A stretch of DNA of 64,000 nt from Ditylenchus dipsaci (taxonomy: Eukaryota > Nematoda > Chromadorea > Rhabditida > Anguinidae), in NCBI GenBank assembly GCA_004194705.1, contig SADC01001334.1:248001-312000 (forward strand), written 5' to 3'. A model generated the notes under the pieces. The model ran no database searches. It was not told the origin of the DNA and worked only from the letters and a program-made list of their open reading frames with translations. The number at the start of each line of letters is the position of its first letter. Positions within the stretch are counted from its first letter, which is position 1. The translations under genes and the position numbers were made by a program. This document shows positions 4,113-62,800 of this stretch, in pieces.

Positions 4113-8912
<4,800 letters not shown>

Positions 8913-11660: not shown

Positions 11661-12850
11661 TTGTACAAACAGAAAATTGCTTAATCTTATGCAAAATAAA
11701 TCCATGTTGCTATAATCATTTTTTTGTAGCAAAAATACTTTTTTGTGGCAAGTTTATTCTTTTGTGGCTAATTTTCATTTTGCCTGATTTTATTAAAATT
11801 TTCTGTCTGTTCTCAAAAGTTATAACACCATCATGTAGCTATGCTCTTCTAGTTTCTAATGAGCTATCGTTTCATCAAACGTCTTTGCAAAATTTGGTAC
11901 GAAAAATTAAAAGTAATTATATGGGCTTGGGAGAAATCGAACATGCGAACAGAAATCACACCACATCAAACGAATAGGTACACCTGATTCTTTAAGTCGA
12001 GCAATCATTCGAGCTTTTGAGAATCCGGATCAGGAGGTGATCAACCGAGTAATTGATGATTGACCGAGACGTTTGGACGCTGTGATTCAATCCAAGGGAG
12101 GTCACTTCGAGTAATTTGTTTGATGTGGTTGTTTTTCGTAGAAAGTCTTAATAAAGTTATTTTTATTCAAGCAATCAGCAATTCAAAAAACATTGAAATA
12201 ATGAAAAAAAAACATAGGGGACCAAGGTAATAAAACGTTTAGCGATTTCGCCCCATCCTGTACATGTATATATTTGTATCTTTCGGAACCCAATCCATAA
12301 ATTTTTTTCAGATTTTATGTGAAAATCATAATTTTTGGTGCTCGAAAATCAGTAAGCGCTCGATAAAATGATACTTTTTTCGACAAGAAATGACTCAATT
12401 GACTTTATTAGGCTAACTGTACTTCTTTTTTTAACATTTGGAGCTATGCACCATTATTTTTTTTCAATTCACGACTTGAAATTTTTTTACTAAGTACATT
12501 TCTTTCGCTTGGCGACATACACTTACAATCTTTAAATCACAGACGTAAAATTTTCAATAAGCACACAATCATCTTAATTAAATTAGTTGGTGACTGAAAT
12601 TTATCCAGGCAGGACAACCCCAAAACAGGCTTAGACAGTTAATGCAAGGTAGAACCACCGTTTACACATACTACTTACGTTACACACTATGCCTGCGATG
12701 CAGGCATAGCATTTCAACGGAAAATACTTTTTTTGGCGCAAAAACATTTTTTGGCACAAATTTCACTTTTGCGTCATTAGATTGAAAATTTTCAACTTTT
12801 TTGAGAAGTTTTAACATTATCATGTAGCCCTGCTCTTCTAGTTTCTCATG
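11661..12850. other. Gene-free spacer
   Basis: No credible gene. Words of the type AAATACTTTTTTGTGGC appear at 11735-11790 and AATACTTTTTTTGGCGC at 12725, followed each time by the CATCATGTAGC...CTTCTAGTTTCT motif. These look like degraded arms of the word-array elements described elsewhere. A truncated AGGGGACCAAGG core B motif is at 12216. Confidence 0.5.
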
Positions 12851-13652
12851 AAGTAATATTTAATTCTGCCCCCTAATTGCTGAAAAATGCCCCTAATTTC
12901 GGGGAAAATGCCCCCTAATTGAATTGCCCCCTAATTACTGAAAAATGCCTCCTAATAACTGAAAAATGCCCCCTAATTCGCTGAAAAATGCCCCCTAATT
13001 ACTGAAAAATGCCCCCTAATTTTTCTTCTCATCGTTTTTAGTCAAAATTTCGCGGGAATTTTAATTTTTCAGTCAAAAAATAACTTGAATTGGTTAGAAT
13101 CCCGCTCCGGAATGGCCAGAAGCCCCTGAAAATTGGTTTTTGGAGGTTTACTATAGGGGAGTAAACTTTTTGCGGAAATTCGATTGGGCGGATCAGAATT
13201 CCAGTCCGATCGGCTGAATCGCTCAGAATTTCACCCTGAACCATTCTCAACTATCTTGAACAGCCCTAAGCACTGATTTAGGGTAGTTAGATACTGCTCT
13301 GGAGCAGTTTGGAATGGTTTAGGGCGTTTTAAGATGGTTGAGAATGGTTCTGGATGAAATTCTGAGTGATTCAGCCGATCGGCCCGGAATTCTGATCCGC
13401 CCAATCGAATTTTCGCAAAAAGTTTACTCCCCTTTAGTAAACCCCAAAAAACCAATTTTCAGGGCTTCTGGCCATTCCGGAGCGGGATTCTGACCAATTC
13501 AAGTTATTTTTGACTGAAAAATTTAAATTCCCGCGAAATTTTGACTAAAAACGATGATAAAGAAAAATTAGGGCGCATTTTTCAGTAATTAGGGGCAATT
13601 CAAATTAGCGGGCATTTTTCAGTAATTAGGGGGCAAAATTAAATACCACCCT
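12851..13652. mobile_element. hAT-like word-array foldback with core A, TSD TTCTCATG
   Basis: Right terminus is ...AAATACCACCCT (inverse AGGGTGGTATTT), left terminus the decayed AAGTAATATTTAATTC. TTCTCATG flanks both sides (12843-12850, 13653-13660). The left arm is a tandem array of CCCCTAATTACTGAAAAAT, repeated in inverse in the right arm, and the centre is core A. No transposase. Confidence 0.75.
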
Positions 13653-14099
13653 TTCTCATGAGGTATCATTTATTTTATCGATCACTACTCATTTGTGCAA
13701 AACTCATTTGCGCAAATTTTTTAAAGTTACAGGTTCGAATCCAGGTGGTAGCAGAAAGTATTTTTTCTTGAATAACAACCATAAACTAGTTTTTATAAGA
13801 TCAGTAAACCTCAGGTTGGATAGGAGGTCCACCTGGTACTTCTTTTGAATAGGCATCCAGCTCCAGAATCCGATATTTTTGATTAAGCTGAAAGTATTAT
13901 AAAATCAATGTACCCTATCCAAAATCGTGTCCTGAACACGGTTTGTTAAGACCACAATGCTGTTTTAACTAACTGGAATATCAATACCGTGGTAGTTACC
14001 CACTCCAAGGTGGTCGATCTTAAACTTTTGTGATTATTGTGAGTAGACAAACAAATTTCGCATGCCTAAATCCATCCAAATAAAAAGCTTTTGGAACAT

Positions 14100-14770
14100 G
14101 AAAAACGTAAAAAAAAATTTGATCCAAGTGGACGACCACTTGGTTTTGTTATACCTGGTGGTCGTACCCAGGTTGAAGAACTCAGGTAAAACTCCTGGGT
14201 AGTAATATTTTCGTCTTGTAAAGAACTCTTAAAATTAAAATTTTTTTCTATGATCCAACTTCAGTTCCACTGGGTAATCCATGCACCAATTAAACCAAGT
14301 GGTCGCCCACTTGGATCAAAAAATTTTTTACGTTTTTTTGTTCCAAAACTTGTTTTTTGGACTAATTCAGGCATGCTGAAGATGGTTTGATAGTGGTGAA
14401 ATGCCGTTTCGTCGAGTATTTTTTGAGTACCGTAAATCCTCTAATAGAGTCCCCGGGGGCTTTATTTTCAATCCCTGAAAAATCTTGAAATTGTCAATCA
14501 AAAATGGTGCTAACTCTGAAACTCTAGTCAAATATCGAGGGGGGGGCTCTATTAGAGGATTTACGGTATTCGGCAATAATTGATTTTACCCAAACTGGAT
14601 TTTACCAAAACTCAAGATATACCCACCAAAACGGTATTTTACCACTATCAAACCATTTTCAGCATACCCGAATTAGTCCAGAAAACAAGTTTTAAGGCCC
14701 GAAAAAGTAAAGAAAGTTTTTGCTCCAGGTTTTTGCTCCAAGTGGACGACCACTCGGTTTGTCGGTTAAG
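14100..14770. repeat. Core C foldback (CCAAGTGG palindrome)
   Basis: GATCCAAGTGGACGACCACTTG and related code flanks inverted sequence around TTTGATAGTGGTGAAATGC. The same core recurs at about 45830-46075 and 56105-56440. The copy here is broken and contains the 14430-14566 insertion. Confidence 0.65.
14430..14566. mobile_element. CCGTATTT-family MITE (private word GAGTCCCC)
   Basis: Begins CCGTAAATCCTCTAATAGAG and ends CTCTATTAGAGGATTTACGG, with TA on both sides. The interior has the family motif AATCCCTGAAAAATCTTG. Short, non-coding. Confidence 0.75.
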
Positions 14771-16005
14771 ACTAAAAAATTAAAATTACAGCAAAATTTT
14801 TACTGAAAGTGAGAGTCCAAAAAAGTCATTGAATACACTGAAAGTGAATATAAGACTGAGAGGCAAATTTTCCTATTGGGTACAACACTGAGAGTGAGAG
14901 TGAAAGGCATAGTGGGAGTGAGAGGAGAAATCACTAATTGGATACGTGGCCTTACAGGACTACTTCAGGACTGGGTTTCTATTTCAAATCGTGTTCAGGA
15001 CACGATTCTGAATAGGGTATGATACCTTCAAAGTTATTCCAGTGAAGAAAAAATAATTTCTGCTCCCACCGGGATTCGAACCTGTAACTTTAAAAAATTT
15101 GCGCAAATGAGTTTGCGCAAATGAGTTTGCGCAAATGAGTTTTGCGCAAATGAGTTTGCGCAAATGAGTTTTGCGCAAATGAGTAGTAACGATTTCATCA
15201 TCTTTGGAAAATGTCATACAAAAATAGCTACAAAAACCACATTTTTCAAAGATGATGCAATAATTGATAGGACAATACTTTTTTCTCCGCCTAATTCACT
15301 TTTTTTTCCGCCTAATTTTTTCCCGCCTAAAACACTTTTTTCTCCGCCTAATTTACTTCTTTTTCCGCCAATTTACTCTTTTTCCGCCTAATTTTAATTC
15401 TCGACACGTAATCAACCATTTTAGAAAACTTTTGTGTGAAATTCAGGGGTGGGCAAAGACCAGATGGCTGGAAACCCACTCCGGAATGGCCAAAAGGCCA
15501 AAATTATTGGTTTTTTGGGGTTTTACTAAAGGGGGAGTAAACTTTTCGAGAAAAATCGATTGAGCGGATCAGATTTCGGGTCCGATGAGCTAAATCGCTC
15601 AGAATTACAGGTTTTCGGTGTTCAGGTGGAGTTGTGGGCGATCAAGCCCATCGGACCCGAAATCTGATCCGCTCAATCGATTTTTGTCGAAAAGTTTACT
15701 CCCCCCTTTAGAAAACCCCCAAAAACCAATAATTTGGCCTTTTGGCCATTCCGGAGTGGGTTTCCAGCCATCTGGTCTTTGCCAGTGTTGTGCTGAGCTC
15801 ACTCCGAGTGAGAATCTCACTGAGAATTCTCAGTGAGAATCTCACTCACAGACTGTGAGGACAAAGTTCAAAATTCTCACTCTCACTCACAGCCTGTGAG
15901 GACAAATGCCATTCTCACTCACTCTCACTCACACAAAATATCATTCTCACTCAATTCTCAGTGAGAATTTTGAGAATTTCCGCTACATAGACGGCATCAA
16001 TTCAT

Positions 16006-16824
16006 GGATAATATTTCTTTATGCCCATAGAATACTCGTTTTGCCCATAGAATATTTTTTTTTCGCCCATAGATTTGAATGCCCATAGAATACTTGTTTG
16101 CCCATAGAATACTAGTTTTTGCCCATAGATTTATTTTTTTGACCATAGATTTTAAAATTTGCGGAAATTCAAATTTTTTGGTCAGAAAATGACTTGGATC
16201 GCTTAGAATCCCACCCCGGAATGGCCAGAAGCCATTGAAAGTTGGTTTTTTGGGGGTTTACTAAGGGGGGGGTGAACTTTTTGTGCAAAATCGATTGAGC
16301 GGATCAGATTTCGGGTCCGATGGCTCAATCGCTCAGAATTTCAACCTGAACCACTCAAACCACCAAAACCTGAAATTTTGACAAGTCTCCAGAATATTCT
16401 CGACCGAAAAGCCCACCACCTTTTTACCTTGTACGGTATTGTTGTTCGGTTTGGAGACCACCTTACACATCATTGGAGGTCCTCTACGTTTTTTGAGATC
16501 CACTTCACCACCATCAAACACATTGACGGAGATGGGACCCTTTCGTAAAGCCCCAATAAACCGAATTTCAGGGGCTTTCGTCCACTCTGGGTGAGATTCT
16601 GAGCGATCCAAGTCATTTTCTGACCAAAAAATTTAAATTTCCGCAAAATTTAAAATCTATGGGCAAAAAGAATTAATCTATGGGCAAAAAAAATAAATCT
16701 ATGGGCAAAAAGAATAAATTTATGGGCAAAAACGAGTATTCTATGGCAAAAACAAGTATTCTATGGGCGTTCAAAATCTATGGGCAAAAAAAAATATTCT
16801 ATGGGCAAAAAGAATTACCACCCT
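16006..16824. mobile_element. hAT-like word-array foldback (word GCCCATAGAATA), core A
   Basis: Right terminus AGAATTACCACCCT, left terminus the decayed GGATAATATTTC. The flanks CAATTCAT (15998-16005) and CAATTTAT (16825-16832) match in 7 of 8 bases. The left arm is a tandem array of GCCCATAGAATACTCGTTTT-like units, the right arm the inverse, TATGGGCAAAAAGAATA. Core A fills the middle. Same end type as 12851-13652. Confidence 0.7.
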
Positions 16825-17030
16825 CAATTTATATCATTCTTGAATTACTTCAGTCTTTATTATTTCAAATCATGCAACAAAATCAAGTAAGGTTGTAAAA
16901 ATAAATTGTTTACAAAGATAAGGTAGATAATTAAAATAATGAAGAGCACAAAGTAAACGTCGAGTATGTTAAGTAAATATAAAAAATTTGCATAGCTGTA
17001 AAATAGGTATTGAATAAAATGGGTGGAATA

Positions 17031-17264
17031 CCGTATTTCATTTAATAGAAGCCTCGGGATTCTATTTTTGAATCCCCGAAAATCGGAAAATTTAGAATTC
17101 GATCTCGAGATTTCAGGTGCTCAACAAAAATATAAAAAGTGAAATCAGAAGAACTGTTAGAATTAAAACAACAGCTTTGAAAAATATTGTTTCTGCCCTG
17201 AGATACAGACCCTCAAAGTTAAGGGGGCTTGTATTAGAGGGGACTTATATTAAAGGAAATACGG
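17031..17264. mobile_element. CCGTATTT-family MITE
   Basis: Starts CCGTATTTCATTTAATAGAA and ends TATTAAAGGAAATACGG. It contains the family segments CTGAGATACAG and CCTCAAAGTTAAGGGGG. Inserted in the hAT element 15783-17606. Confidence 0.75.
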
Positions 17265-17455
17265 CAGGTGATATTATTAAACCTGAGAGATCGCCAACTC
17301 AACTTGCTGGTTTGCATTCTCCTTCTGTTCTTTTTCAAGCGAATTTCAGTGATTTTAGCGTTGATTTCTTAAAAAATGTCAGGTTCGCTAAACTGACATA
17401 TCAGTGTCACTGTCAGTGTGAATTATGAAAACACTGGTTATAAAGAACATTTCAG

Positions 17456-17605
17456 GAGTGGAAATATATTGCTGAGCTGGCATTAGAAGTATCAAGCACG
17501 CCGGCGACGAGCAGCCCAATCGAACGAACTTTTTCTCAATGCGGGTTAGCAACGGCAAGACATAAAAGTACTCACAGGCCGAAAAATCGTCCTCAGCACA
17601 ACACT
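17456..17605 (+). pseudogene. hAT transposase C-terminal dimerisation remnant
   Basis: After a TTTCAG acceptor the frame reads EWKYIAELALEVSSTPATSS, then PIERTFSQCGLATARHK. This matches the hAT family C-terminal signature (LA...L..PATSAPSERVFS.AG). The remainder of the transposase, including the catalytic core, is not recognisable upstream, and the frame runs out through the terminal inverted repeat. It is a non-autonomous relic whose position inside a CAGTG-ended element with an 8-bp TSD supports a hAT origin for that element type. Confidence 0.8.
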
Positions 17606-17836
17606 GGTCTTTGCCCACCCTGAATTTCACACAAAAAATTTTAAAAATGGTTGATTTCGTGTCGAGAATCAAAATTAGGCGGAAAAAAGAATAAATTAGG
17701 CGAAAAAAGAAGTAAATTAGGCGGAGAAAAAAGTGAATTAGGCGGAGAAAAAAGTATTTTCCTAAATGATACCTCATCAGAAACAAAAATTTTGCGCCAA
17801 AAAGTGGATTTGCGCCAAAAAAAAGTATTGTCCCAT

Positions 17837-18335
17837 TTTAACTCGCCTAGAGGTGTGCACGGGTCGGGCCGTCCGGGCCGGCCTGACCCACTTTTCGAGT
17901 ACATATGTCGGCCCTAAGAATATATTATTGAAGCTAAGATTCCAGGCTACAAAACGTATATTAATGCATATTACGTATATTGTTATTATCCAATGAATTT
18001 TCCAAAAACACTCAATTTTTCAACCACGGCCGGCCCGGACAACTTGAAAATTACCGTATTTTCTCTATTAACGAACCCGGGTTCATTATTTTCAACCCTT
18101 CAAAAATGTTTAAATTGTAAATCAAAAATGGCCCTAACTCTGAAACCCTAGTCAAAAATCGAGGGGGGGGGGTTTATTATAAGAGAGGTTCTAGAGAAAA
18201 TACAGTGATAGAGAAAATACGGTACGTTCTTTTTAAAAATTATCCAAAATTTTTATTCATTCGCTATAAATATTAATATACGTTTGTAGCCTGGAATCTC
18301 AGCTTCAATAAAATATTCTTAGGCCGACATATGTA
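17837..18335. repeat. CCGTATTT-family copy and spacer
   Basis: A copy runs from CCGTATTTTCTCTATTAACG (18054) to CTAGAGAAAATACAGTG (about 18205), with private word AACCCGGGTTCATTA. Directly after it another end, TAGAGAAAATACGGTACG, lies at 18208-18226. No gene. Confidence 0.65.
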
Positions 18336-19376
18336 CCGTATTTTCTCTATGAATTACCCCGGGTAATTATTTTTCAACTTTTGAAAAATCGAAAAAAAAA
18401 TGGCTCATACTGATTTGGTTTGCGAAAAGGCTGAAATATGCCACGAAAAAGATTATTTCTGCCACGAAAAACGACATAAAACGAAAAAGCGGAAATGTAC
18501 CACGAAAAAGCTGAAACGTGCCACGAAAAAAATTATTTATGCCTTTTTCTGTCCAAGACCAACCAAATTTAGCAATATTTTGCAAGAATTCAAATTTTTA
18601 GTCATGAAATAACTTGGATCCCTCAGAATCCCACCCGGAATGGCCAGAAGCCCCTGAAAGTTGGTTTTTGGGGTTTACTAAAGGGGGAGTAAACTTTTCG
18701 AGAAAATTCGATTGAGCGGATCAGAATCCCGGTCCGATCGGCTGAATCACTCAGAATTCCAGGTTTATGGTGGTTTTGAGTGGTTCAGGGTGGAATTCTG
18801 AGTGATTCAGCCGATCGGACCGGGATTCTGATCCGCTCAATCGAATTTTCGCAAAAGTTCACTCCCTCTTTAGTAAACCCCAAAAAACCAACTTTCAGGG
18901 GCTTCTGGCCATTCCGGGGTGGGATTCTGAGGGATCCAAGTTATTTCATGACTAAAAAATTTGAATTCTTGCAAAATATTGCTAAATTTGGTTGGTCTTG
19001 GACAGAAAAAGGCATAAATAATTTTTTCGTGGCACATTTCAGCTTTTTCGTGGTACATTTCAGCTTTTTCGTGGCACATTTCCGCTTTTTCGTGGCACAT
19101 TTCCGCTTTTTCGTGGTATGTCGTTTTTCGTGGCAGAAATAATCTTTTTCGGGGCATATTTCAGCCTTTTCGCAAACCAAATCAGTTTATGCCAAAAAAA
19201 ATATTTTGATTTTGAGATTTTGGGTGCTCAACCAAATTTTAAAAAGTGGCATCAACCAAGTTCGTGGTGATTAAGAACACGTAAAAAACAGATCTGCAAA
19301 ATATTTTTTTTGAGCTGAGATACAGGGTGCCTATGGGGTAATTATTAGAGAGGGGTAATTGATAGAGAAAATACGG
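18336..19376. mobile_element. CCGTATTT-family MITE split by a later insertion
   Basis: Left end CCGTATTTTCTCTATGAATT, right end TGATAGAGAAAATACGG, private word ATTACCCCGGGTAATT. The family interior (GAGATTTTGGGTGCTCAACC) resumes at 19213 after an approximately 795-bp insertion at 18401-19195. Confidence 0.75.
18401..19195. mobile_element. Word-array foldback (CACGAAAAAGCTGAAATGTGC-type), core A
   Basis: Ends TGGCTCATACTGATTTGG and CCAAATCAGTTTATGCCA. Arrays of CACGAAAAAGCTGAAAT (18440-18535) face the inverse TTTTTCGTGGCACATTT (19020-19140). Core A lies between, with CCTGAAAGTTGGTTTTTGG and its inverse. The flanking A-runs hide any TSD. Confidence 0.75.
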
Positions 19377-19694: not shown

Positions 19695-22600
19695 ATAAAA
19701 AAAATAAGACGCTATGGAAAAACGTTCAGTACTCCAGTCACCTCTATTTCGTGCCATCCAACAAAGTTTGATGTTATTGCACTCGGTTAGTCCTCTTGTA
19801 CTACTTTTGTAATTACAAGAAGCTGGTCAATCAATTTCAGGTTACATGGATGGTCTCGTCCGATGCTGTGTCTTTGATGTGACCAAGAAAAAGTTGCAAT
19901 CTGTGTGGTCTAGTAGGTCGGTTGTTATCCCGTCTTAGACATTTTGGCTGTGATTTGTAATAATACCTCTTCTTAAAATTGTGCTTTTTCGGCGATTAAA
20001 ATGTTGAATGAAAACTTCAGGAGGTGCCGGACTGTGCATAAGCCGACCCGATACCGGATCGGCTCTCCCAGGGTCATGTTTTAAAATAATTACGAATGAT
20101 GGCTCTAATTAAACCACATGAGGTAACTGTAGGGTTTCTAGTGAAAAATACGAGGAATTCTACAGTTATCTCGTTGTGTTCCATTCTTAGAGAAAAGTTT
20201 AGGAAGGAAGAGGCAAAATGGTGGTGGCAGGAATCGAACCTGCAGCTTTCAGTTTGCCGGGCTGATGTGCTACCATTACACTACGCCGCCACCTCTTCCT
20301 TCTTTCCTAGGGGCTTATGTACAGGTTATTCAAGAAATTGTAACACTTTCAAACTGCCATAACTTTTTATCCCGGCACGATTTCGAAATTTTGTAAACGC
20401 AGATCGACTCAGAATTTCATGGCAATTTTTTTGGCATATAATGTCAAAAACACGATTTTTGCTTGGTCCCCCTGTGGTTTGGGCTCTGATCTGTAGATGG
20501 CCTCTGGATAGGTGAGACCCAAACCACAGGGGGGACCAAGCAAAAATCGTGTTTTTGACATTATATGCCAAAAAAATTGCCATGAAATTCTGAGTCGATC
20601 TGCGTTTACAAAATTTCGAAATCGTGCCGGGATAAAAAGTTATGGCAGTTTGAAAGTGTTACAATTTCTTGAATAACCCTGTATATCTGCTCTCTTTACA
20701 CCTCCCCCTATTTTTCCCAGACTGTCCTCAGTCTACCATAGCTCGCTGCGAGATATCTCGCTGCCGTTATGCTGCTCGCAGCCCAGGGATCTCTTCTACT
20801 GCTGCGATACACCTCGCAGCTCTGCTGCGGGACACCTCGCAGCCCAGGTTATGCCTAGACAGGGCAGACATACATAGACCCCAGTGGACCCCAGAGATCA
20901 TAAGACTTTACGTTGTGAACTTTGTTCACCATCCTCCCTCTGGCTGAACCACTCGCTGCTACCAGAAAAGTTTAGGAAGGAAGAGGCAAAATGGTGGTGG
21001 CAGGAATCGAACCTGCAGCTTTCAGTTTGCCGGGCTGATGTGCTACCATTACACTACGCCGCCACCTCTTCCTTCTTTTCCTAGGGGCTTATGTATATCT
21101 GCTCTCTTTACATTAGTCAGAATTGATGAGTGGTCATTTTAATTTCGAACAAGCTATTTTAGTCAACGGCACAAACACGTTTTTATGCCCCAAAGTCAAA
21201 AAAAAGTTCACTTGGAGGCTCTTTATATTGTACCCGGATCAATTTTGGTGAAAAAATTTTCTTCTAAAAACTGTAGATTGCCATATGATCCATGTTTTCT
21301 GCCCTTTGTGTCATTAACGGTTGAAAATATTGTTTAGATGATTTTGGAAGAGTGTAGTATAAGAACAAGTGCTCAGTCTTTCTTAAAATTTCAAAATTTT
21401 AGATTCAAGAGATCCATAAGAGCACTGGAATTTTCGGAAGATGTCATTTCCTTTATGTAGTTTGGTATGTGAACACATTCTTGTTCCAGATCCCAAATAA
21501 TTTATTTAGTGCCAACCGAGCGGCTTGCGTCTATGATGTGGAGACTGGAAAACGGTTGAGGTGTATTCGAAAAGCTCATGATGATAAGCCCACCAAAATC
21601 TGTGTCCTGCCCAATGCGGATGTTGTGACTGGTGCTGAAAATGGAGAGGTAGTTTTCGTCACTCACATTTTCGAAGTAGCTAAATTATTTGGAGATACGA
21701 ATGTGGGACTTTCGAAAAGATGAGCCAATAGTTGCCACACTCAAGGATCAGGATGACATTGTCAACGCTTTCGGGATCTACAAGAACTCCGTCTTAGCTG
21801 GTAATCATTTTTAGTGTATAAGGCCTCAGAATTAGGTAGTTTTCGGTTATCCGGAGCTTAGTCCAGAATTTTTTTATTGGCCTCTAAGTCTTTACTTTGT
21901 TTAAGTGAAGCTAAACTTGGTTTGAGTAATGAAAGTGTAGATTGTGTATTGCTTGTTGCAAGCTGCTCAATGAATATTTGTAAGGTATTTTAAACCATAT
22001 AATGTTGAACGACCATACTTTCTGGTCGCTCCAAACGACTCAAAGAGTAGCGTGAGAGACGAAAGAGAAGTGTCCCGCGCGAATTTGAATTTGTCAAATT
22101 CTCATTTGCATCAAAAAGTATGGTCCTCTAACGTTATATCTTTTAAAATGAGTAAGAAACACGAATACAGTCGACGCTCGATTTAACATGCACCCGATTT
22201 AACATACGCTCGAATTAACATGCGCCTTGGGTCGCTGCCTTCAATAATAAACTCCGTCAAATCACCCCCTCCTATATAACATACGCCCGATTTAGTCCCC
22301 AGACCGTATGTTAAATCGAGCGTCGACTGTATACTATTTGAATGAGCTTTCTTGATAAAAAAATTGCAGAAAACCACAATACTCACCCTTATGGTTGAAA
22401 AATAGAGGGCACCTGGAGCTCTTATGAAGGTATTGTACCATGTCATTTTCAGCTTCCGGCGATTGCACTGTGGCCACCTATGATTACCGTCAAAGGAGGC
22501 TTCGTCTGAGATCCGAGAAGATGCACAGTGAGCTGCTCTCCATTGCTGTTGGCGACAAGTATGCCATTTGATAGTCAACTAACACTGATGAAAAAAATGG

Positions 22601-26433: not shown

Positions 26434-27436
26434 TGATTAGTGACCTGACTCGGTTTGAGGTCTTTCCAGTGCTGTACGCTCTTCTGCCGGACAAATCGCA
26501 AGAAACCTATGAGAAGCTTTTGAGGATGATTCGCACTGTCTGGCCGGCCTTTTACCCATCTAGCATCTCCGTGGATTACGAAATGGCGGTGATCAATGCA
26601 GTGGAAGTAGTGTTTGGAGAGTCCGAAATATGGGGATGCTTTTTTCATCTCGTCCAAACCTGAAGAAACGACTGGCCAAAGAACATCTTAAAGGGCGCTA
26701 CGAAACGGATGCCGACTTTGCTATCACATGCCGTTTGTTTTATTTACTTATTGTTGTTGGTTGGTGTAAATGAACTTCTTTTCAGGTATGATCACCGCCA
26801 TGGCCTTCATCAAAGTCGAAGACATCATGGACGCCTTCGATCAGCTGTGTGACGAATTGCCAATCGAACTGGATGGAGTGGTCGAATGGTTCCAGAAAGG
26901 TTACATTGGTAAGTTCTTTGAGTTTTGAATTGATTGGTCTAATTATCTGGTATTCTGTTTCAGGTTCTGTGGACAGAAGAGGAAACTTGACGCCGCCAAT
27001 GTTTGCACACTTGCTCTGGAACCTTTATGAAAGAACGCTCAATGGGAGACACCGAACAAACAATTACGCCGAGGCTGCCAATCATCGAATTCAGACGGAA
27101 ATTGACGTGTGCCATCCGGGACTGTGGACATTCATCACTCATCTCAAGACAGTGCAGCAAGGCCGAGACCAGAAGTTTCTCCAGTGGATGTTGGGCAAGC
27201 GACCGAAAGGAAAGCAACTCAAGTACCAAAAAGCTGACGCCAGAATTCTTACCATTGTGCAAGGATACCAAGGAAGGGATGCCACAGAATATCTCCGAGG
27301 AATCGCACACAATTTATCATGGAAGATTGATTTGTTTGGTTGTTATGTTAGAATGGTATTTTTTCGATCTTCTTTCATTTTGTTTGCCGTTATGTTATCT
27401 ACCAATAAATCGTTTACCTTGACTTGCTTGTCTTAA
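26434..27436 (+). pseudogene. MULE/Mutator-like transposase relic (5'-truncated)
   Basis: Reads VFPVLYALLPDKSQETYEKL, SVDYEMAVINAVEVVFGESE and IWGCFFHLVQ, the DDE-core segments of metazoan MULE transposases. At 26660 one base is missing (a CCC run would restore VQTLKKRLAKEHLKGRYE), after which two further exons follow across introns of about 52 and 57 bp: MITAMAFIKVEDIMDAF, then LWNLYERTLNGRHRTNNYAE, LWTFITHLKTVQQG and AHNLSW. The N-terminal FLYWCH-type region and element ends are not seen. Codon quality is good apart from the single lesion, so the copy is recent or under some constraint. It starts about 75 bp from the eEF1B start, divergently. Confidence 0.8.
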
Positions 27437-27469: not shown

Positions 27470-27660
27470 GGGGCTTTCAGGGAAACGTTCTTTGAGGGGA
27501 AACGGCCTTTGAGGGGAACTTTGAAGGGAAACGTCCTTTGAGGGGAAACGTCCTTTGAGGAAAAACGACCTTTGTGGGGAAACGGCCTTGAGGGAAACGT
27601 CCTTGAGGGGAAACGGCCTTGAGGGGAAACGTCCTTTGAGGGGAAACAGGGCGGACCCAA
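27470..27660. repeat. Tandem array of AAACGTCCTTTGAGGGG
   Basis: About ten units of GGGGAAACGTCCTTTGA, with GGCC/GTCC alternation. The inverted partner array was not found nearby, so it may be one surviving arm of a word-array element. The ORFs across it are artefacts. Confidence 0.8.
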
Positions 27661-59800: not shown

Positions 59801-62800
59801 TGTAAGGTTGGCACAAGGCTTCTGGCTCTGTGTTGATCTTGCAGAGAGTGTCCAGCAAACTAAATTATTATCACATTTTATGTGAGTCACCCGGCTGTCA
59901 GAGAAGACCCGACACTACCTTAAAAAGGTACTAATATCTAATTTTTTCCAACATAAAAAAAATATTGAAAAAGAAATATTTTTGTTGGCTTTCCAAGATA
60001 AAATTGGGTAATTCTTTTTTTGGGGAAAATACATTGTGTTAGAGCAAATTTATTTTTTATGGTGCGAATTTTTCTCTTTTTTGTGGAAAATAATTAAAAT
60101 CCCGCAAAAAGTTGTCGATGATTGCTTGTATGTAATTTTTATTTTATTTACTCGTCTGCAGTGTTTTAAAAATTTCGCGGGAGATTTACTTATTTTGACG
60201 CGTGTTTTCACCTACAGCCATTATTACCGTATTTTCTCTATTAATCCCTTTCCCCAAATCCGGTATTTCTTAATTCATTCTCCTCCTTTTATACCGAGTT
60301 TTGTTTTCGAACGCCTCATATATTATATACCAAATGTAGCCGGGAATCTGCGCTACATTTTGGTATTTAACATATGTGGCGTTCGAAAACAAAAACCCGG
60401 TATAAAAGGAGGAGAATGAATTTAAGAAATACCGGATTTTGGGGAGGGGATTAATAGAGAAAATACGGTATATATAAAAAATTTATGCAACCTATTGGAA
60501 AGCTGAGCTTTGGAATAGGTTGCTCAAGGGGCTTTCCGGACAACCTGGTAATATGTTCTAACATCAATTTTATCAGTGCCCACCTGTTTTTCAATCTCAA
60601 ATCTTTTTGGGAGTCTATTGTGGCTAGTGTTGCAATGGAACTTTGGATGCAACCCAAATGGTGTTGGAACATTTGCAAGGCTGGTCTAAATTGTCATTTT
60701 AGTTATCAAAATAATGTTTGCGCAAATCGAAATTCACCTTAGGCCTGATGAAATACCAATTAGAAGGACTCTGAAAAACAATTGTTTCAAATATTAAAAA
60801 ATCGCTAATTGAAAAATACGGGAAAAAGTCGTCGACAAAAGCATTAGCCTGTTTTATGTCTTTGGCTGTGGTTTCACTGATCAGGAAGCTGTGCATCGAC
60901 GGTTTGATGACCCAGTGGAGAGGACCAAAAAGAAGTCTCGACAGAAGTCAAAACTGGTAGGGCCTCCACTAGATCCGATCCGTACATTTGACAAAAGGCG
61001 CTGGTGGAAGGCCTGCAAAACAGAGAATTGAATTTTGATTTTTTTTAATAGTAAGGAAGATTTTGAAGGAATGTTGATAAGGGCGAATTATAATTTCGAT
61101 TTGATTAGAAAATTGAAAGTCTTTTAAAAAATTTACCGCACCTCACTCTGCACCTTCCAGTCATTAGTCATATAGGCAAACATTTCTTGGATGTAGACAG
61201 CACAAAATGAAATCCAACAGGTGCTGAAATGTTGACTTTGCAAACAAAGAATAAAAAGATTTGAATGAAAAAAGGGTAATATTTTTTTCTCACCGCAAAT
61301 ACACTGCGAATGCACCGCAAATTATTTTTTCTCACCGCGATTTGATCTTCCCGCAAAATACTTTTTTCTCACCGCAAAATACTTTTTTCTCACCGCAAAA
61401 ATACTTTTTCCCCCCGCAAACCTAATTTCTGTCTAAGACCAACTAAATTTGCATAATTTTGCAAGAATTTGAATTTTCAGTCAGGAAACAACTTGGATCC
61501 CTCAGAATCCCACCAGAATGGCCAGAAGCCCTGAAAGTTGGTTTTTTCGGGGTTTACTAAAGTGGGGGTAAACTTTTTGCGAAAATTCGATTGAGCGGAT
61601 CAGATTTCGGGTCCGATGGGCTTAATCGCTCAAAATTATAGGTATATAGTGGTTTCAAGTGGTTCAGGGTGGAGTTGTGGGCGATTGAGCCGATCGGACC
61701 CGAAATCTGATCCGCTCAATCGAATTTTCGCAAAAAGTTTACTCCCCCTTTAGTAAACCCCAAAAAACCAACTTTCAGGGGCTTCTGGCCATTCTGGGGT
61801 GGGATTCTGAGGGATCCAAGTTGTTTCCTGACTGAAAAATTTGAATTCTTGCAAATTATGCAAAATTTGGTTGGTCTTAGACAGAAATTAGGTTTGCGGG
61901 GGGGGGGGAAAGTATTTTTGCGGTGAGAAAAAAGTATTTTGCCGCCAATTCAAAATTTGAACACTTCAAAGAAATAGCTTTTTTAATTTCGAGGTGTTTT
62001 TTTCGGATTCCTTGTCAAAATTTTGGGCTAATATTTGGCCAAATAGAAATGTTGGCGCTACTCGGTTATAGTTATAGTTACTCGCAACTTTTTTCATTTT
62101 CGAGTAAACTTTCCAAATTTGAAGCTTGGTCCCCCTGTTTATTTTTTTCAACTTTTTTCGATTTTTTGAATATTCAGGGTAGGCCATCGCATGTTAGTAC
62201 GGACTCAAACGTGTGGTTTAAACATTATTTGAACAGAATTTTTTTGCAAAAAAAATAGGGGGGACCGAGGCATGAAAAAGTTTCATTTTCGAGGAAACGT
62301 ATAAATTGTAAATTTTGATTATAACACCATACCTAATAGCAATTTCGGTGTAGACCTGAACTTTTTCAACCGAAAAGGCCAGATCAAACTCCAATATCGA
62401 CGTGTTCCAGCCAAAAGACTCAGCGCCATCCACCTGGCTCTTCACATTGTATTTACAGACAATTTGGATGAGACCCGTTTTGAAGAGTAGAATATCCAGG
62501 ACTTCAATTGTGGACGGAAAAATTTCAACTAAAAATTTTGAAAAAAGTTAGATAATCTAAATTTTTGGTGTTTGGATCTAGCCTGTTTGTTGTGGTTGAT
62601 GGTGAGACATTAAGCCTTGGGTAACATTCAAGCGAGCCACTTTGAAAACAGCGGATGCAAATACATCAACATAGGTGATCTCATCTATTTCACAGGCCAC
62701 ACACAAGAAGGTGCCGATAAGTGATTTGAGCAGAAGGCTAGTGCCTGCAAACAAAACTTCATTTGGTCGAAAAGAGCAGTGTTTGGCTAAGGACATTTTC

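Follow-up and report, generated by a model that had tools for sequence, protein, structure and literature searches.

How can related foldback elements carry different short words in their arms while the left and right arms of each copy stay matched? The question is raised by a stretch of 64,000 nucleotides of Ditylenchus dipsaci (contig SADC01001334.1, positions 248,001 to 312,000), called here the window, in which a sequence-only reading had described five elements with one palindromic core, each bordered by inverted arrays of a short word of its own. The five elements, with related palindromic cores and inverted arrays of different words, proved to be real, and a sixth, decayed one is added to them here. 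The features, in positions of the window, are as follows.

about 7534..8197, unstranded: sixth, decayed element, with the 21-bp word TTTGCAGCAAATTTTCGTAAT inverted on both sides
12842..12850 and 13652-13660, unstranded: left and right copies of the 9-bp target duplication TTTCTCATG of E1
12851..13651, unstranded: foldback element E1, motif GCCCCCTAATT family (word 4)
12867..13021, strand +: left 21-bp array TGCCCCCTAATTACTGAAAAA of E1
13566..13635, strand -: right array of E1, the word of the left array inverted
15261-15269 and 17763-17771: target duplication of E2, TAATTGATA and TAAATGATA, read by eye
15270..15782, unstranded: foldback element E2, left piece, with the left array (15277-15393) and the core halves; motif CCGCC
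15783..17606, unstranded: hAT-type element inside E2, terminal inverted repeat CAGTGTTGTGCTGAG, 8-bp GTCTTTGC on both sides
16006..16823, unstranded: foldback element E3, motif GCCCATAG, target duplication TCAATTCAT/TCAATTTAT
17607-17614: second copy of the hAT duplication, directly before the right piece of E2
about 17615-17762, unstranded: right piece of E2, with the inverted right array (17672-17756)
18402..19193, unstranded: foldback element E4, motif CCACGAAAAAG, target duplication AAAAAAAAT twice
61274..61942, unstranded: foldback element E5, motif CTCACCGC family, right arm truncated

E2 as a single 2.6-kb element (15270-17836) is rejected, since it is split by the hAT-type insertion; E3 is nested within the latter, and the hAT-type element is itself no part of the foldback E2. 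A match to the hAT dimerisation region was obtained near 17450-17600 (E = 7.9e-4; 19.6 bits, below the Pfam cut-off of 21.4). The two termini of E4 are unequal (GGCTCATACTG and GGCATAAACTG), a search for a target duplication around E5 found none, and the core match of the sixth element is weak.

The 17-mer of the core has 1,213 exact matches (605 + 608) in the 227-Mb genome and the reversed 17-mer none (0 + 0), so that the abundance of the core is not due to chance. From 79 core pairs, four overlapping duplicates were dropped, leaving 75. Word calling admitted only periods of 18-24 bp, and within these limits the period was 21 bp in 100 of the 118 arms with a called word; the arms hold about 2-12 units of about 21 bp. 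Where both arms have a called word (49 elements), left and right agree in 48. The words are mostly not private to single elements, as had been supposed: that of E1 is present in 5 of the 75 core pairs and those of E4 and E5 each in more, while the word of E3 is found in E3 alone among the core pairs and its pattern occurs at 60 + 68 places genome-wide, counted irrespective of the core.

Most words recur as subfamilies, each with its own diverged core. Half-cores long enough for comparison numbered 135 of 150 possible, from 74 elements (both halves in 61, one in 13); 114 were labelled by the word of their own arm, 12 by that of the other arm and 9 remained without a label. Among the 120 half-cores whose words were seen in more than one element, the nearest neighbour shared the word in 103, against a mean of 18.8 and a maximum of 37 in 500 shuffles of the labels. 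The sequence-only reading had itself named ordinary subfamilies with diverged cores as the outcome that would contradict it, and among the core pairs this is largely what is found; L054 and L041/L084 are apparent mosaics.

Structurally the elements are foldbacks, with long inverted arms of tandem subrepeats around a small centre. Their 9-bp flanks match with at most one mismatch in 32 of the 46 elements with both ends recognised, and in 20 of 2,070 swapped-flank controls; an exact repeat of at least 6 bp is missing from the flanks of 18 of the 46. Target duplications of about 9 bp are those of the Mutator superfamily. In families with two types of end, 20 of 23 elements have one end of each type.

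The internal organisation of the arms was resolved by parsing units into motif and spacer at loci lying outside the window and for words other than those of E1, E3 and E4. Of 111 parsed arms, 78 passed the filters, which removed arms read in the inner register, arms scoring under the limit and any second arm on a strand. Six of the 78, including the second arm of L054, stayed without a class, and 72 arms from 52 loci fell into ten motif classes. All ten have in common one position-specific, AT-rich spacer layout, the spacer sequence within a unit depending on its position in the arm, and in each unit a G+C-rich motif of 6-8 bp that is class-specific and nearly uniform along both arms. In a parse seeded and aligned by a spacer template, which favours spacer similarity, motif distance is 0.19 within an arm and 0.50 to the same slot of another class, whereas spacer distance is 0.37 within an arm and 0.25 to the same slot of another class. 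Restricted to the 45 arms of loci found by the core, the values are 0.21 and 0.47 for motifs and 0.38 and 0.28 for spacers. Chance likeness of AT-rich spacers is rejected, the letter-shuffled baseline being 0.486 against 0.227 in the real spacers at class level.

Neighbouring units rarely mix motifs. Mixed pairs numbered 3 of 100 for GCC/GTC among the matches listed (76 and 21 pure), 0 of 59 for CCCCCAGT/CCCGCAGT (30 and 29 pure), 0 of 100 for TTACC/TCACC among the matches listed, these two classes differing in spacer bases too, and 3 of 58 for CCGCC/CCGAC among the rows shown with letters. All three slots belong to one class in only 46 of the 72 arms; the third slot is consistently different in 6 (the CTCCCGTC class), and one slot is uncalled or miscalled in 20. 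The arms of the same locus agree in class in 20 of 20 cases, a count outside which the mosaic L054 stands, its second arm being unclassed.

Upstream of 20 of 21 N-terminal exons encoding a transposase-like protein, arms of this kind could be identified by eye; L112 is the sole copy with no recognisable arm. The coding copies represent five motif groups (CCCGCAGT; CCCCCAGT and other CAGT variants; ACCCCGCC; ACGCCCTC; CCCGTC-like), labelled by eye and with the CAGT variants lumped; none of them is a word of the window. Copies of the L113 type carry degenerate CCCGTC units together with a CCCCCC array. With L112 left out and 8 near-identical copies (more than 90% alike) collapsed, all 12 remaining copies have a nearest neighbour, by N-terminal domain, of their own motif group, and amino-acid identity of this domain is 0.71 (0.53-0.86) within motif groups and 0.44 (0.27-0.54) between them. 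Motif and N-terminus sit in one element and plain descent suffices for such tracking, which therefore shows a lack of swapping, not a function.

Mean identity among 18 divergent copies is 47% for the N-terminal and 67% for the C-terminal piece, from 46 N-terminal and 40 C-terminal matches picked by eye, seemingly on the same contig, from 141 and 150 listed. An N-terminal match of at least 50 aa was present in 26 of 40 pairs, of which 19 have the higher identity in the C-terminal piece; the remaining 7 are close to the reference sequences, which were taken from two separate copies. A faster N-terminus would also be expected if the C-terminal piece were merely more constrained.

In coding copies, a non-coding stretch immediately interior to the right arm is matched by the outer half of the foldback core (L106, E = 1.9e-8; L097, 3e-5; L088, 4e-11); in L094, a copy with a right end, the core found no match. 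Because of this correspondence, the foldbacks look like inverted duplications of the right end of coding copies that kept one foreign terminus. They are probably non-autonomous and derived from a single, diversified cut-and-paste transposon family of the Mutator superfamily. Beside the coding copies, PF10551 (MULE) gave no match in the 150 of 504 candidates scored, compared by eye; PF21056 gave none either, an uninformative negative since it matched nothing in control genomes. In intact copies 1.2 kb lie between the N-terminal and C-terminal exons (for example C17:231151-232378). Pfam detected neither FLYWCH nor SWIM in the transposase-like pieces, a 115-aa N-terminus matched 0 Pfam families at E up to 10, and a PDB search with the N-terminus returned nothing. 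The elements are not filed as Phantom because no N-terminal FLYWCH domain was found by Pfam. In L106, CNCPVGIKDELCKH fits what we take to be the C-terminal SWIM-type CxC..CxH pattern, for which Pfam gives no match. The window does contain a MULE match at 26457-26657 (C1299:274457-274657), which belongs to something else than the foldbacks; the neighbouring ORF (26792-27433) gave nothing in Pfam and NCBIfam scans.

Judging from these sequence comparisons, we consider it likely that the elements are Mutator-type foldbacks in which a putative transposase-binding motif turns over together with the predicted DNA-binding domain of the protein. In the model that we propose, the N-terminal domain of the transposase-like protein would bind the motif present in each unit. 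As this domain drifts in a coding lineage, the motif would follow in almost every unit of the two arms, with layout and spacers kept as they are. Foldbacks would then bud from the changed coding lineage, and the new motif would spread as a subfamily. The co-evolution with transposase-binding sites that had been suggested for the window is consistent with the motif switch in the parsed classes and with the N-terminal tracking; the sites themselves are candidates. We infer that selection would be the cause of the concerted switch, that the elements belong to the Mutator superfamily and that the scheme extends to the words of E1, E3 and E4.

Under one alternative, arms and core drift together by lineage, and the motif switch is ordinary concerted evolution by unequal crossing-over or conversion, with no binding protein involved. 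The co-segregation of words and cores agrees with such subfamily divergence, as do the unequal unit numbers of the two arms, the single unit that differs in one arm of the duplicated pair L060/L061, and an array in which CCGCC and CCGAC units stand together (C64:197883-198024). Homogenisation of whole units, however, should level the spacers also, yet these remain position-specific and are nearer to the same slot of another class than to other slots of their own arm, the reverse of what the motifs do. We therefore regard divergence of this kind as unlikely to be the whole explanation.

Modular exchange and arm-to-arm conversion, both raised in the first description of the window, are less likely still. 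Swapping of whole arrays around a fixed core, by recombination or by templated synthesis during mobilisation, could account for L054, which combines a CCCGCAGT-class arm with a TTACCGC-like arm and has no target duplication, for L041 and L084, whose cores are closest to family 3 (distance 0.049-0.079, three of four half-cores) and whose word is a different one, and for the inner junction TTTCTGTCCAAGACCAACCA, common, as such or as a close variant, to several families. Nevertheless, words match within elements and predict their cores, and the arm layout common to the parsed classes is not what an exchange of unrelated arrays would produce; whole-word exchange is rejected as the main process, its operation in any general form is quite improbable, and arm/core recombination, judged from the apparent mosaics, looks uncommon. 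Active arm-to-arm conversion in a hairpin, which would keep the arms alike after insertion, would explain why half-cores are on average 0.082 apart within an element and about 0.12 between different elements with the same word, and why 9 mirrored private core changes are observed against 0.05 expected under independent mutation. On the other hand, 80 private changes are single-armed, the arms of L060 and L061 show no mirrored change, the difference being a 21-bp unit on one side and 4 bp on the other, the ends remain unequal, and the likeness of the two arms can stem from the source copy. The arms change mostly one at a time after insertion; active matching is not supported, and we give conversion hardly any credence.

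Foldback arms of short tandem repeats, as found here, are known from Drosophila Foldback/NOF and plant FARE elements, and such arms have been suspected of being transposase-site arrays. Both kinds of element are cited in the parts of PMC3169594 considered here, which describe Tm1, the Mutator/Foldback elements of root-knot nematodes. Like the present elements, Tm1 resides in nematodes, has composite inverted repeats that are long and contain tandem units, duplicates 9 bp of target, ends in short motifs that are unequal and generally of one type per end, and exists in MITE-like as well as coding forms; within an element the two repeats are about 93% alike. It differs in a unit of 13-15 bp for which one consensus is given, against about 21 bp and at least ten motif classes in a common layout here, and in a transposase with Pfam FLYWCH and MULE domains, neither of which was found here (PMC3169594, in part). 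The resemblance to the VANDAL elements of Arabidopsis and their VANC proteins lies in motif behaviour only: a short protein-binding motif occurs in tandem, and its units often diverge together and differ between related families. VANC is an anti-silencing protein acting on non-coding regions of the element, whereas the candidate partner here is the transposase-like protein itself, the arrays occupy the inverted arms at the ends of the element, and the spacers persist across classes with different motifs; for VANC, emphasis is placed on repeat units being gained and lost (parts of PMC5735166 and PMC10398659). Galileo shares foldback-like arms with several sites for the N-terminal (THAP) domain of its transposase, which binds several other subfamilies weakly or not at all, and its chimeric copies are likewise rare (12 of 170) and lack matching target duplications; it differs in belonging to the P superfamily, with 7-bp duplications and three sites identified in one subfamily (PMC3688188, PMC3573991). 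In the parts of these papers considered, a fixed layout with a switched motif is not described; according to the 2013 Galileo paper, the idea of foldback arms as transposase-site arrays was still untested for Foldback and Phantom elements. The sources searched, seen in part, gave no description of such a combination in foldback arms, which may still exist elsewhere.

Since a single genome offers ten or more motif classes built on one layout, and coding copies for five motif groups, the way in which multi-site recognition changes all its sites becomes testable, and ordinary concerted evolution of repeats can be separated from motif-restricted change. The families with switched motifs would naturally document joint change of a mobile element and its key. 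We raise as a tentative possibility that one genome preserves at least ten lock-and-key steps, in each of which a shift in N-terminal specificity would have rewritten the 6-8 bp motif in nearly all units of both arms, about two helical turns apart and with the spacers untouched, isolating the subfamily from the transposases of its relatives. If so, foldback subfamilies would be born through rewriting confined to the motif, driven either by very short conversion tracts or by selection for binding at many sites.

All five foldback elements of the window (E1 to E5), in which a palindromic core lies between inverted arrays of a short tandem word, are present, and the boundaries of E1, E3 and E4 were placed because of the 9-bp repeats at their flanks. 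E3 is nested within the hAT-type element that splits E2, E5 is truncated on its right side, and a sixth, decayed relative was found.

12851-13651, E1, 9-bp flanking repeat TTTCTCATG
end at 17762, E2, flanking repeats TAATTGATA/TAAATGATA
15783-17606, hAT-type element splitting E2, GTCTTTGC at each side
16006-16823, E3, 9-bp flanking repeats TCAATTCAT/TCAATTTAT
18402-19193, E4, 9-bp flanking repeat AAAAAAAAT
near 7534-8197, decayed sixth relative

The sequence-only reading had taken the word to be private to each element and exchanged whole around a fixed core. Sampling of 77 regions around listed exact matches of a core 17-mer (1,213 in the 227-Mb genome overall) gave, with the window, 79 core pairs, reduced to 75 by removal of four overlapping ones. 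The word call, which admits 18-24 bp, was obtained in both arms of 49 pairs, in one arm of 20 and in neither of 6, with a 21-bp period in 100 of 118 arms. Single-linkage clustering produced six families of at least five arms plus six smaller groups; words are mostly not private, since families recur among the 75 core pairs, within which the E3 word is confined to E3. The claim that left and right words match was borne out: 48 of 49 elements have both words in a single cluster; the arms of the exception, locus L054, come from two families. The nearest half-core (one side of the core) from another element carried the same word in 103 of 120 cases, compared with a mean of 18.8 and a maximum of 37 in 500 label shuffles. 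The 17 exceptions include L041 and L084, which combine a family-3-like core with another word and may be real recombinants. Cluster 1 merges the variants CTTACCGC, CTCACCGC, CCGAC and CCGCC, the type that includes E2, and its core spread (0.18) is therefore as wide as that between families. Because words recur and agree with cores, they largely mark subfamilies with cores of their own, and modular exchange is not the main process.

Printed side by side, the arms of many subfamilies have a common layout within which the motif, the 6-8 bp G+C-rich part of the word, differs by subfamily: the end (GG..), motif, AAATTACTGATTT, motif, AAATTTATTTTTT, motif and then the 30-bp spacer AAATTTGAATTTYRARCAAAATACTGATTT, motif, AAATTACTGATTT, motif. 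With the spacers fixed and the motif free, 1,026 and 350 genome matches were obtained versus 3 and 2 for the reversed control, counts in which a single site may figure several times; a dozen or so motif strings are listed among them, some probably being single decayed copies. The parse covered 78 arms from 56 loci outside the window and outside families 0, 3, 4 and 8, to which the words of E4, E1 and E3 belong and whose arms appear related only on visual inspection; 72 arms (52 loci) fall into ten classes. Motif distance was 0.19 inside an arm versus 0.50 between classes when equivalent slots were compared, and rose to 0.456 (minimum 0.422, 200 shuffles) when motif slots were shuffled among arms. 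Spacer distance was 0.37 between slots of one arm versus 0.25 between classes at equivalent slots, against a letter-shuffled baseline of 0.486; spacer similarity is favoured here, since the parse started from fuzzy spacer matches and relied on a spacer template. The same comparisons gave 0.21 and 0.47 (motif) and 0.38 and 0.28 (spacer) in the 45 arms of core-found loci, and 0.13 and 0.47 (motif) and 0.37 and 0.23 (spacer) at class level. The class call was identical in all three slots of 46 of the 72 arms. Six more, the arms of the CTCCCGTC class, carry ACCCCGTC in the third slot and were treated as uniform in the distance analysis, and the other 20 have one slot that lacks a call or, for L125, a miscall at a truncated unit. 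Both arms shared one class in 20 of 20 loci with both arms classed, the mosaic L054 standing outside this count because its second arm was unclassed.

Mixed neighbours are rare. Around an identical spacer, 100 listed of 516 places comprised 76 GCC/GCC, 21 GTC/GTC and 3 mixed, and the complete set of CCCCCAGT/CCCGCAGT neighbours 30 and 29 pure and 0 of 59 mixed. With patterns that also admit spacer variants, none was mixed among 100 listed of 205 TTACC/TCACC places, classes that differ in spacer bases as well, and 3 were mixed among 58 lettered rows listed of 507 CCGCC/CCGAC places; two of these three lie in one array, C64:197939-198024, a possible intermediate. In the CCCGCAGT/CCCCCAGT classes, the outermost unit carries CACACACC, CACACCCC, CACGCACC or similar in place of the CAGT motif (L088, L094, L095, L097, L099-L101, L105, L106), and looks as if it had escaped the motif switch.

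Loci L105 and L106 hold a 2-kb copy that has CCCGCAGT arms, an end of each type and protein-like sequence. Its N-terminal exon type, shared with L095, has at least 141 genome matches at 100% to 29% identity among the 150 candidates scored out of 271. Five UniRef proteins, every one of them from Ditylenchus dipsaci, matched the N-terminus of the transposase-like protein (68-96% identity across 35-49% of the query), and in 18 divergent copies N-terminal pieces were more divergent than C-terminal ones (mean identity 47% versus 67%). Among 20 N-terminal matches taken with 400 bp upstream, plus L095, arms were recognised by eye in 20 of 21 coding copies, and motif groups were assigned by eye.

Motif groups of the coding copies
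CAGT variants: L095, L108-L111
ACCCCGCC: L116, L122
ACGCCCTC: L117, L119-L121, L123, L125, L126
CCCGTC-like: L113-L115, L118, L124, L127

None of the words of the window occurs among the groups of these 21 copies. Once copies more than 90% alike were collapsed, the nearest neighbour belonged to the same group for 12 of 12 labelled copies, and N-terminal identity was 0.71 (0.53-0.86) within and 0.44 (0.27-0.54) between groups (label permutation p=0.00005, which ignores descent). Motif and gene lie within one element, so this tracking signifies a lack of reshuffling and not that one drives the other. Separately from the labels, match listings were compared by eye within 3 kb: 8 of 29 CCCGCAGT places (contigs C48, C438, C841, C863, C874, C1105, C1248, C1250) were near listed N-terminal matches of 78-99% identity, 1 of 30 CCCCCAGT places (C141) was near a listed 72% match, and ACCCCGCC places on C62, C98 and C132 were near four of 41-42% among the matches listed, spanning only the first 36-37 residues. 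Judged from sequence, motif turnover appears linked to the N-terminal domain of the coding copy. The upstream regions of L113, L114, L115, L118 and L127 are nearly alike and combine degenerate CCCGTC units with a CCCCCC array, which may represent an element in transition from one motif to another. Immediately beyond two CCCGCAGT coding copies (upstream of L108 on C841; C863:375284-375317) there is a TTACCGC or TCACCGC array from the other family, as either a neighbouring insertion or a composite.

With a helical turn of 10.5 bp, the 21-bp period would correspond to two turns and place the motifs on one face. Passages of PMC3688188 describe an N-terminal THAP domain of Galileo that binds repeated sites in the long arms, with weak or no binding to several other subfamilies, and passages of PMC5735166 and PMC10398659 describe the VANC motifs of VANDAL arrays as synchronously evolving. 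By analogy with both systems, the N-terminal domain is proposed as a putative binder of the motif. Selection at each site would be a candidate route by which many sites switch while spacers stay; alternatively, the switch could proceed through conversion tracts whose length does not exceed that of the motif plus its common AAATT flank.

Among 46 elements in which both ends could be recognised, 32 have 9-bp flanks that match with at most one mismatch, versus 20 of 2,070 swapped pairs; exact repeats measure 9 bp in 25 elements, 10 bp in 2 and 8 bp in 1, and one of at least 6 bp is absent in 18. In families with two-typed ends, 20 of 23 elements carry one type at each end. Tm1 is likewise reported, in a passage of PMC3169594, with 9-bp duplications and two-typed unequal ends. 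The elements constitute a foldback family resembling Tm1, probably of the Mutator superfamily, in which the motif turns over in concert on a conserved layout. For ~80 bp the two flanks of foldback L028 repeat each other in inverted orientation, which places its insertion close to the middle of another palindrome.

Half-cores differ by 0.082 within an element versus 0.12 between elements of the same word. Active arm-to-arm matching, as earlier envisaged, finds no backing: 80 private core changes are single-armed versus 9 mirrored, and arms change separately in L060/L061, a segmental duplication in inverted orientation (97.6% over 2,526 bp) with zero substitutions and two single-base gaps inside the element, one 21-bp unit difference in one arm and 4 bp in the other. 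Arm matching looks inherited, not actively kept (n=1 duplicated pair). The outer half of the core resembles a non-coding segment that coding copies carry inside their right arm (E1 half-core with L106, E=1.9e-8, 72% over 89 bp; half-core with L097, E=3e-5, and L088, E=3.7e-11). No match was found to the left-end loci L095, L105 and L109 at E up to 1e-3, nor to L094, a locus with a right end. Given right-arm matches without left-end ones, foldbacks would seem to have arisen by duplication of the right end in inverted orientation, a step suggested by this modest match.

Several foldback families of differing period coexist in this one window; the E4 half-core matched none of the four additional pairs.

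44038-44267/44845-45091, 16-bp units
45444-45592/46293-46396, 15-bp units
45672-45768/46119-46228, 10-bp units
33078-33194/33719-33795, 14-bp units

A PF10551 (MULE) match at 26457-26657 (E=1.5e-6) is followed by an ORF at 26792-27436 and a 17-bp array, GGGAAACGCCTTTGAG, at 27480-27647, which together may represent a further MULE that has an array of its own. Two equal-scoring tRNA matches on the minus strand (20219-20290, 20992-21063) enclose a 370-bp palindrome (20317-20686). The inverted pair 13687-13769/15045-15126, 94% alike, contains GGTTCGAATCC, which we take to resemble a tRNA B-box, and may be a SINE or else the arms of a further element. A passage of PMC11118728 gives the D. dipsaci genome as 227.2 Mb with 55.7% repeats. 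SL1 RNA matches were obtained for 50 of 50 scored candidates (best E 2.4e-8), under the curated cut-off, and SL1-like repeats spaced about every 1.08 kb at C351:6620-19444 and 1.17 kb at C409:50373-59806 constitute two SL1 repeat arrays.
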